In this document: positions 42,899-45,408 of the stretch, piece by piece
How the letters are laid out: each line of letters starts with the position of its first letter
Position numbering within the stretch: the stretch's first letter is position 1
Assembly: GCF_018437505.1 (NCBI RefSeq)
Contig: NZ_CP072467.1
Span: forward strand, 992,001-1,056,000
Length of the DNA: 64,000 bases
Source of the DNA: Spiractinospora alimapuensis
GTDB taxonomy: Bacteria > Actinomycetota > Actinomycetes > Streptosporangiales > Streptosporangiaceae
Direction of reading: 5' to 3'
Notes under the pieces: generated by a model
Databases searched by the model: none
Told to the model about the DNA's origin: nothing
Seen by the model: only the letters and a program-made list of their open reading frames with translations
Made by a program: the position numbers and the translations under genes

Positions 42899-43396
42899 AT
42901 GACGAAGCAAACGCTCACTGAGCCCACACACGCGCCGTTCACCGCGCCGCCGCGCGACCGCGACCCCGATGTGCCCGTACTGGCGATGGCGCACACCGTC
43001 AGCGCCCCCGGAGTCCCCGCCGACGGACTGGCGGAGGTCAGGGCCACCTTGCGCGCGGGGATGACACGAGGCCCGGAACCCCTCGCGGTGTCCGAGGGGG
43101 ACATCGTCGACCTGTCCCTGTGGGAGTCCCCGCTGGACGTACGCGCCTTCGTCCACGGACGCCACCAGGACCTGCTCCGGCTTCGACGCCGGTGGGGACT
43201 CCCCGCCGACGCCGTGACACGCGTGCTGTGGTGGGTCGCGCCCGGGCACACGCCCGACCACGCCGAGGCCGCGGCACGCCTACGCCACCTGCGGGAGTTC
43301 GGCCCGGACCGCGAGGCGTTCACCCTGCGCAGCCCGGTGCCGCCCCCTCAGGTCTCGCGCAGGGCCTCGACCGCGGCCGCGAGGTCCTCGGGATAA
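42899..43396 (+). CDS. DUF3291 domain protein
   Basis: Protein of 165 residues. The core has the DUF3291 pattern: [16 protein letters not shown] near residue 77, then [19 protein letters not shown] and [10 protein letters not shown], a dimeric alpha/beta-barrel-like monooxygenase fold. The usual end is near PVPPP; the last 15 residues (QVSRRAS...) lie over the end of the convergent pseudouridine synthase gene and look like read-through into it. The ribosome-binding site is weak. Probably regulated by the divergent LysR protein. Confidence 0.8.
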
Positions 43397-44274
43397 GGAC
43401 TGGTGAACTCCATCGGGCGCCCCTCCGTGGGGTGGGTGAAGCCCAGACGCACCGCGTGCAGCCACTGGCGGGTGACGCCCAGCCGCTCGGCCAGTCGCGG
43501 GTCGGCGCCATAGAGTCGGTCGCCGACACAGGGGTGACGCAGGGCTGCCATGTGGACCCGGATCTGGTGCGTGCGCCCCGTCTCCAGCGTGATGTCCAGG
43601 AGGCTGGCGGCGCGGAAGGCCTCGATGGTGTCGTAGTGCGTCACCGAGGGTCGTCCACCGGCGACCACGGCGAACCGTCCGTCCCCGCTGGGGTGCCGGT
43701 CGATGGGGGCGTCAACGGTGCCGCGGAGGGGATCCGGCCGGCCCTGCACCAACGCGTGGTAGCCCTTGTCCACGGTCCGCTCCTTGAACGCCCGCTTCAA
43801 CGCGCCGTAGGCCGCCTCGCTCTTGGCGAGCACCATGGTCCCCGTGGTGTTGGCGTCCAGGCGATGGACGACGCCCTGACGTTCCGCCGCGCCACTGGTG
43901 GTCAGGCGCACCCCGGACGCGAGCAGACCCTCCACCACGGTGGGGCCGGTCCAGCCCACCGCGGGGTGGACGGCGATCCCGGTGGGCTTGTCCACGACGA
44001 CGATGTCGGCGTCCTCGTAGATGATCCCGAGTCCCGGGACGGCCTGAGGCTGCGTCGTCGGGGCGCTCGGCGGAGGGGGCAACGAGATGTCGAGCCACGC
44101 GCCGGCGAACACCCGGTCGGACTTGGCGGCGTCCTGACCGTCGACCAGGACGTCCCCGGCGCCGATGATCTCCGCGGCGCGAGCGCGGGACAGGCCGAAC
44201 ATACGCGCGATCGCGGTGTCCAGGCGTTCCCCGGCCAGACCGTCGGGGACGGGCAGACTGCGTTGGTCACCCAT
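43348..44274 (-). CDS. RluD-type 23S rRNA pseudouridine synthase
   Basis: Enzyme of 308 residues. An S4 RNA-binding domain at the N-terminus ([22 protein letters not shown]) is followed by the catalytic domain with the aspartate motif [14 protein letters not shown] near residue 135 and the closing motif [12 protein letters not shown] near residue 230. The site modified is most likely in 23S rRNA, as for RluD. The ATG at 44274 overlaps the end of lspA by 8 bases. It overlaps the end of the convergent DUF3291 gene by 49 bases. Confidence 0.94.
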
Positions 44275-45007
44275 GACGATCGTCCCGCGTCGAGGTGTCG
44301 GAGCCGCCCGGGCCCTGGCCGTCGTCGCGCCCGGCACCGTCACCGGGGGTGTCGGCGCCGGCCTGGGGCGGATGCGTGGTCGTGTCCGTCGCCTCGTCAC
44401 GCGTGGACGGCGTGGTGGCCTTCTCGCTGGCCGAGGCGTCGGCGTCCCTGTCCTTCTTGCGCGCGTCCCGGGTTCCGTCCAGGTTCACGCCGAAGAAGGC
44501 CAGGAGCACCGCGAGGACGCCACCGCAGACGATCGCGGAGTCGGCCAGGTTGAACACCGGCCAGTTGGGGACCTGGATCCAGTCGATCACGTGGCCCTGG
44601 AGCGGTGCCGGCTCACGGAAGAACCGGTCGATGAGGTTGCCCACCGCCCCACCGAGCACGAGCCCCAGGGCGATCGCCCATCCGACGCTGCGCAGCTTGA
44701 AGGCGGCGCGCAGGATCGCCACGACCACGATCGTGGCGATGATGGTGAAGACCCACGGGAAGCCCTGTCCGATGGAGAAGGCCGCACCGGAGTTGAAGAC
44801 CAGCGTCAGGGTGAGAAACCCGCCCAGCAGTTCCACTGGGTCGTGCGCCGAGTAGTTGCTCAGCGCGATCTCCTTGGTGGCGAAATCGAGGGCCACGGCC
44901 ACCAGGGCCAGCCCACCGAAGAGCCAGAGCCGCCGCGGGGCCTGCGCCGTCGCGGTGTCGTCGTTCGCGTCCTCTGTCCCCTCGGGGGGCTCCTGCTCTG
45001 TACTCAG
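44267..45007 (-). CDS. lspA: Lipoprotein signal peptidase, apparent CTG start
   Basis: Membrane aspartic protease that removes the signal peptide of lipidated prolipoproteins. Catalytic aspartates are in GNLIDRFF and FNLADSAI, and NSGAAFS is the family motif. The first membrane helix ([16 protein letters not shown]) lies upstream of every ATG, GTG or TTG in frame except an internal GTG that would cut the helix. The only fitting start is CTG at 45007, which overlaps the upstream stop (CTGA) and has GAGGAG five bases ahead. That gives 246 residues with a 29-residue charged N-terminus and a 75-residue acidic cytoplasmic tail. Confidence 0.9.
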
Positions 45008-45408
45008 CGACGCTCCTCGCGCTGTTTACACCGCACGCACTGGGTGGCGCGAGGGAACACCTGAAGCCGGGCCTTCCCGATCGCCTTGCCACACGACTCG
45101 CATGCGCCGTAGGTTCCGGCATCGATCCGTTCAACCGCTCGTTTACTCTGCGCGAGCAGCTCACGAGTATTGTAGGTCAGCGCGAGGTCCTGTTCGCGCT
45201 GGTGCGCCTTCGCCCCGGTGTCAGTGGGGTCGTCCCCGGCGGTGTCCACCGAGTTCGCGAGCCACTCGGCGAGGGACGTCTCGGCCTGGGTCACCTCGCC
45301 GCGCAGGCGGGTGATCTCCCCTTCCAGCTCCGCTCGGACCGTGGTGAGTTCCTCCTCGGTCCAGGGATCCTCGTCGCCACGTACGGGGAGGTTCTCCGTC
45401 TCCGACAT
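45004..45408 (-). CDS. DksA/TraR-type zinc finger protein
   Basis: Protein of 134 residues of the DksA/TraR family, with an N-terminal coiled-coil region (TEEELTTVRAELEGEITRLRGEV) and a C-terminal four-cysteine zinc finger (CESCGK ... CVRCK). The ATG at 45408 has aagggggaa upstream; an ATG at 45480 with ggagggg upstream is an alternative. It is coupled to lspA. It may act on RNA polymerase, but the DksA acidic tip was not confirmed. Confidence 0.9.
   Translation of the reverse strand: MSETENLPVRGDEDPWTEEELTTVRAELEGEITRLRGEVTQAETSLAEWLANSVDTAGDDPTDTGAKAHQREQDLALTYNTRELLAQSKRAVERIDAGTYGACESCGKAIGKARLQVFPRATQCVRCKQREERR

Follow-up and report, generated by a model that had tools for sequence, protein, structure and literature searches.

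A candidate CUG start codon of lspA at its overlap with a dksA-like gene in Spiractinospora alimapuensis and related actinobacteria

This locus raises the question of whether lspA, which encodes lipoprotein signal peptidase (signal peptidase II), begins at a CTG codon in Spiractinospora alimapuensis. The window, meaning the whole 64,000-nucleotide stretch of DNA that was analysed, comes from a genome of one contig (5,864,354 bases), and the coordinates of its relevant features are collected in Table 1. The first-pass annotation of the window had described a CTG at 45007 with GAGGAG five bases ahead and a CTGA overlap, and this arrangement was confirmed on the minus strand. The stop that it placed nine codons before the CTG actually lies seven codons ahead (TAA 45028-45026, with six sense codons between). 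Its claim that no usable ATG, GTG or TTG precedes helix 1 held, the first such codon being GTG 44902, inside that helix.

Table 1. Positions of lspA, its proposed initiation signals and its neighbours in the window
Feature	Position	Strand	Remark
dksA/traR-like C4 zinc-finger gene, upstream	45408..45004	minus	zf-dskA_traR E 1.2e-11; ATG 45408 inferred by reading
Stop TGA of the dksA-like gene	45006-45004	minus	junction with lspA reads CTGA
In-frame TAA (from dksA TGT AAA)	45028-45026	minus	shuts the lspA frame upstream of the CTG
21-base block (-18 to +2)	45005..45025	minus	nearly invariant where dksA decays
Shine-Dalgarno GAGGAG	45018-45013	minus	spacer CGTCG (five bases) to the lspA CTG
Proposed CTG start codon of lspA	45007-45005	minus	shares bases with the upstream stop as CTGA
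lspA, lipoprotein signal peptidase	45007..44267	minus	proposed CTG start, 246 aa, TGA stop
First in-frame GTG of lspA	44902-44900	minus	codon 36, mid helix 1
RluA-family pseudouridine synthase, downstream	44274..43348	minus	TIGR00005 E 4.2e-85, obtained on the longer frame 43351-44400; start inferred by reading

The lspA reading frame in the window

The window LspA matched Peptidase_A8 (PF01252) with an E-value of 7.2e-33 over profile positions 1-142 (114.2 bits, cut-off 25), and it scored 88.8 bits against TIGR00077 lspA (cut-off 73.95). Judged by these profiles, it is an ordinary LspA above both cut-offs, and only its start codon is unusual. When the product was read from the CTG, coverage of Peptidase_A8 began at profile position 1, and when it was read from GTG 44902, at position 5; between these two starts, only the CTG gave the full helix 1. 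GTG 44902 is the start left to a gene finder restricted to ATG, GTG and TTG, since it is the first such codon after the upstream stop. Two in-frame GTG codons within the dksA-like gene of the window (45040-45038 and 45031-45029, at -33 and -24 from the first base of the CTG) are severed from lspA by the TAA. A low-complexity, charged tail of about 60 residues (44270-44480) was observed at the C-terminus of the protein.

The junction with the dksA-like gene has the features of an NTGA gene pair, namely a -4 overlap and a Shine-Dalgarno sequence within the upstream gene. At the other end, lspA shares its last eight bases (44267-44274, ATGGGTGA) with the RluA-family gene that begins at ATG 44274, which makes a run of three overlapping genes. 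Together with the comparison of relatives below, the sequence leads us to conclude that lspA of the window genome is very probably initiated at CUG 45007.

The codon at the overlap in related genomes

Junctions were fetched both within the window's family and more widely across its class, and lspA and dksA were located with profiles built from the window proteins. Within the window's family, 293 of the 297 genomes searched carried lspA. A dksA-like gene lay upstream in 188 of 216 lspA genomes, and the lspA frame was open across its stop in 161. The codon at the overlap in these 161 genomes was CTG in 144, TTG in three, CTA in seven and GTA in seven, with no ATG and no GTG; three records taken as repeats (L031, L032 and L034, of G045, G056 and G237) and L033, which also has CTG, were left out of this count. 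After the rest of genus g47 was merged, the 192 genomes comprised 175 CTG, three TTG, seven CTA and seven GTA, and again neither ATG nor GTG. The start at CTG that had been proposed from the window alone is thus supported for the window genome by the codons of its relatives, none of which showed the ATG or GTG that would have told against it, and a sequencing error at this position was rejected because the same C is found in them.

Many census genomes were picked by a motif that needs an arginine codon before TGA but leaves its third base free; TAA and TAG cases cannot be obtained from such searches, and ten f1 regions were chosen partly for the absence of a longer motif. A motif-free sample reached by LspA similarity alone comprised 120 genomes, 93 with dksA and 73 open across the stop, its 30 f1 loci being those nearest to the window by LspA. 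These 73 genomes had 59 CTG, two TTG, five CTA, seven GTA and no ATG or GTG.

CTG at the overlap was found in 19 families, of which 18 are firm and one (f25) is doubtful. The f25 genomes (one CTG, three CTA) have a standard start two codons downstream, and the GTA case of f18 has one a little downstream, so neither is clean. One f1 genome (G165) has CTA at the overlap and an ATG four codons later. Marinactinospora (G045) has CTG and stands outside the census counts, as no dksA was recognised there. The named relatives examined were Marinactinospora thermotolerans, Nocardiopsis trehalosi, Actinomadura rifamycini and Actinomadura sp. CNU-125. Since it is conserved over 19 families, with f25 doubtful, the CTG appears to be under selection and not an occasional accident. 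At the overlap, NTG is missing from all five fetched f14 genomes and from two of the 12 f26 genomes, so lspA must start elsewhere there; it may start at an ATG 24 bases upstream, inside dksA. The junctions of these genomes (L173-L177 in f14, L166 and L170 in f26) end in CGGTAG, CGGTAA or CGCTAA instead of CGCTGA.

The Shine-Dalgarno sequence accompanied the CTG. GAGGAR was present in 133 of the 144 CTG genomes, and the G at -9 in 184 of 185. A Shine-Dalgarno-like match of at least four bases preceded the CTG in 143 of 144 genomes, compared with three for the triplet at -24 and 27 for that at -33. The protein after the CTG reads L-[STN]-[DE] in 81 of 147 cases. The overlap dictates a codon beginning with A for residue 2 but does not dictate an acidic residue 3; aspartate or glutamate occupied residue 3 in 57% and residues 4-14 in 6-36%. 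Putative lspA starts at GTG or ATG, picked by eye in other families, often read V/M-[ST]-[DE], a parallel that is only suggestive. In genus g47 (L198, L237, L254-L283), the bases from +3 to +33 after the CTG were often identical between species; in four pairs the identity was 30/30, including a rare GTA codon and CCCTCCGGGG.

Constraint on the overlap and competing starts

The first base of the CTG is also the third base of the last dksA arginine codon; an A or G there would leave the arginine unchanged and turn the CTG into ATG or GTG. Upstream dksA codon usage predicted approximately 42 G, 8 A, 16 T and 52 C at this site in 118 genomes (families f25 and f39 and records lacking a handle were left out), and 108 C, seven G and three T were seen. 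All seven G genomes have TAG or TAA stops, hence no GTG. On the LspA tree of 185 genomes, constructed without families f25, f39 and f18 and the Planktophila record L035, the CTG base changed six times, compared with 29 changes at -3, in the preceding arginine codon, 21 changes at -12, a mostly arginine codon, and 52 changes at -60, also arginine. All 40 genomes of g47 have C in the match of the motif GARGARCGNCGNTGA that lies at lspA, which thus ends in CTGA, while its 95 other matches in the same genomes had A in 41, G in 26, C in 22 and T in six; thus 67 of the 95 end in ATGA or GTGA, irrespective of the genes that follow them. Across the class, 20 loci with CGNSARGARCGNCGNTGA at which no lspA was found had A in eight, G in six, C in five and T in one.

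One control pointed the other way. For 27 dksA genes the lspA frame does not continue open across the stop; 11 of them finish with CGNTGA, which is CGCTGA in ten. Six of the ten come from f1 and f19, other members of which do overlap, and four from f13 and f29, which do not. By the census, the tree, the g47 comparison and the decayed dksA loci described next, the CTG is more strongly conserved among relatives than the coding of dksA requires; this one control stands against it.

Genomes in which the dksA-like gene has decayed, through broken frames or loss of the zinc finger, bear on the same issue. They are five g47 species (G087, G209, G276, G238 and G247) and Marinactinospora (G045), and their loci are L002, L198, L203, L269, L271 and L273. 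Each was compared with one relative. The bases from -18 to +2 were identical at 21 of 21 positions in G087, G209, G276, G247 and G045 and at 20 of 21 in G238, and the identity from -60 to -18 was 43-48% in G087, G247 and G045 and 69-86% in G209, G276 and G238. Both upstream NTG triplets (-24 and -33) are lost in G087 and G247 while the CTG block stays; G087 and G045 retain an in-frame ATG or GTG farther upstream. This pattern argues that it is lspA, and not dksA, for which the block of Shine-Dalgarno sequence and CTG is maintained.

Codon choice in dksA alone was accordingly judged an unlikely explanation of the C: at -3 and -60 the third base of arginine codons is free to change, ATGA or GTGA prevails at the motif elsewhere in the g47 genomes, and the block outlives dksA, although the non-overlapping dksA genes stand against this judgement. 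A conserved hairpin (CAGCG ... CGCTG, with the Shine-Dalgarno sequence in its loop) was not supported either. Four of its five pairs show hardly any variation, which the coding of dksA would produce by itself, and the pair involving the CTG base forms in 67% of the 144 genomes; four longer stretches had no folding advantage over shuffled sequences (z of -0.98 to 1.26), and the 23-base piece alone gave a z of -1.40. We lean towards a CUG that is selected and not merely tolerated. On this view, lspA would be kept on a pyrimidine-first start (CUG, rarely UUG) over 18-19 families, AUG and GUG would be excluded, and ACAGCGCGAGGAGCGTCGCTG would act as a stand-alone initiation element. This reading is weakened by the C before TGA in the non-overlapping dksA genes.

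The alternatives depend largely on the lspA frame upstream of the CTG, inside dksA. Both -33 and -24 are NTG in nearly all relatives, because they overlap the zinc-finger cysteine codons, and an ATG, GTG or TTG triplet stands in the lspA frame at both positions in 104 of the 144 CTG genomes, whether or not the frame is open. A itself, which makes ATG, is favoured at -24: it was seen in 64 of 118 genomes against 4.6 expected, created through rare codons such as ACA and TCA. A frame-closing T is scarce, with one case at -21 and three at -12 among 118 genomes and approximately 16 expected at each, yet T at -21 was also rare without the overlap (two of 21, a small control). Between -48 and -3, A or T is over-represented at most synonymous sites, which would be normal for an initiation region. 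Over the last 16 dksA codons of the relatives (window 45007-45055), CTA, ACA, AAA, CAA and CGT were far above expectation at several positions. The codon bias looks as if the upstream frame may be translated in many relatives. Nine of the 144 CTG genomes, the window genome included, have no in-frame ATG, GTG or TTG within 120 bases upstream, and five of these nine, the window genome again among them, also have no downstream start before helix 1.

A start at the CUG is compatible with a second one. Relatives could use both a weak ATG or GTG inside dksA, lacking a Shine-Dalgarno sequence, and the CUG, producing two forms of LspA. The bias at -24, combined with a CTG block that outlives the decay of dksA, makes this a possibility to be taken seriously, though we think it unlikely. 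It is impossible in the window genome, where the TAA at 45028 intervenes, and the depletion of T at -21 that would favour it recurs in the small control without the overlap.

It is still less probable that most relatives start lspA only at the ATG or GTG at -24 or -33 in dksA, with a short N-terminal extension of the protein, the CTG as an internal leucine codon and the window genome as a fallback exception. The near-universal NTG triplets over the cysteine codons, the rare-codon ATG at -24, the scarcity of T at -21 and -12, and the f14 and f26 genomes without NTG at the overlap speak for it. Against it, the Shine-Dalgarno-like matches stand almost always before the CTG and seldom before -24 or -33; the nine CTG genomes without such a start within 120 bases belong to several genera and families; and the decay of dksA in G087 and G247 removed both triplets and spared the CTG block. 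Upstream starts alone also leave the absence of ATG and GTG at the overlap unexplained.

An internal start, at GTG 44902 or, in g47, at an ATG at +33, is very improbable. It would provide a standard codon, and the in-frame ATG at +33 occurs in 36 of 40 g47 genomes, but the window has no ATG there, a start at GTG 44902 would delete some of helix 1 together with four Pfam profile positions, and the block of Shine-Dalgarno sequence and CTG persists where the dksA constraint is gone. A -1 frameshift near the dksA stop, giving a DksA-LspA fusion that needs no start codon, hardly deserves belief: the overlapping frames do have the right offset, but no slippery heptamer was seen by eye at CGT CGC TGA or in the preceding codons, and dksA is broken in G087, G247 and G045 with the block intact.

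Probable initiation at CUG and its counterparts in known systems

If lspA starts at the CUG, the 30S subunit would bind GAGGAG inside the last dksA codons and then initiate at the CUG, presumably with the normal formyl-methionine tRNA. Ribosomes terminating at the overlapping UGA could supply part of the initiation by coupling through CUGA. Coupling to an intact dksA is not needed in the six genomes in which dksA has decayed, as the CTG block persists there. The CUG may have been kept over AUG or GUG because a weak start would hold a membrane protease low relative to its neighbours. The absence of ATG and GTG, together with the occasional TTG, suggests selection for a weak start, and keeping the protease scarce is a plausible reason for it.

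Gene finders limited to ATG, GTG and TTG would then be expected to misplace the beginning of lspA in many genomes of actinobacteria. Globomycin targets LspA (PMC6952399, PMC9943842), and correct LspA N-termini therefore matter for expression work. If the CUG is indeed selected, this would be the most widely conserved bacterial CUG start to our knowledge, and a natural case of expression set by the weakness of a start codon. A rare weak start seems to have been kept over deep time, and why the cell avoids AUG becomes directly testable.

Rare CUG starts and -4 NTGA overlaps are both already known, while the literature searched yielded no example of a CUG start shared by many families; no paper on a CTG start of lspA appeared among the matches listed, in a search whose coverage leaves out most subscription journals. 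In the available text on Mycobacterium smegmatis, CTG shows no enrichment among leadered starts, even where a Shine-Dalgarno sequence precedes it (0.03%; PMC4633059), so the CUG should be weak for lspA. A figure quoted second-hand puts the annotated CUG starts of 69 bacterial genomes at 20 (0.024%; PMC9845219). Those starts are likewise CUG and likewise rare, but lspA differs in that one gene keeps the CUG across 19 families. In -4 NTGA gene pairs, the stop and start share bases, the Shine-Dalgarno sequence lies in the upstream gene, and termination is coupled to reinitiation (PMC12548453, PMC6728339). The layout of dksA and lspA is the same, except that the junction is CTGA, and never ATGA or GTGA in the 192 genomes. 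The infC and pcnB genes of enterobacteria start at AUU. Like the proposed lspA start, these are conserved rare start codons; they limit or regulate the translation of a single gene, as the CUG may do, and the codon, the gene and the organisms differ.
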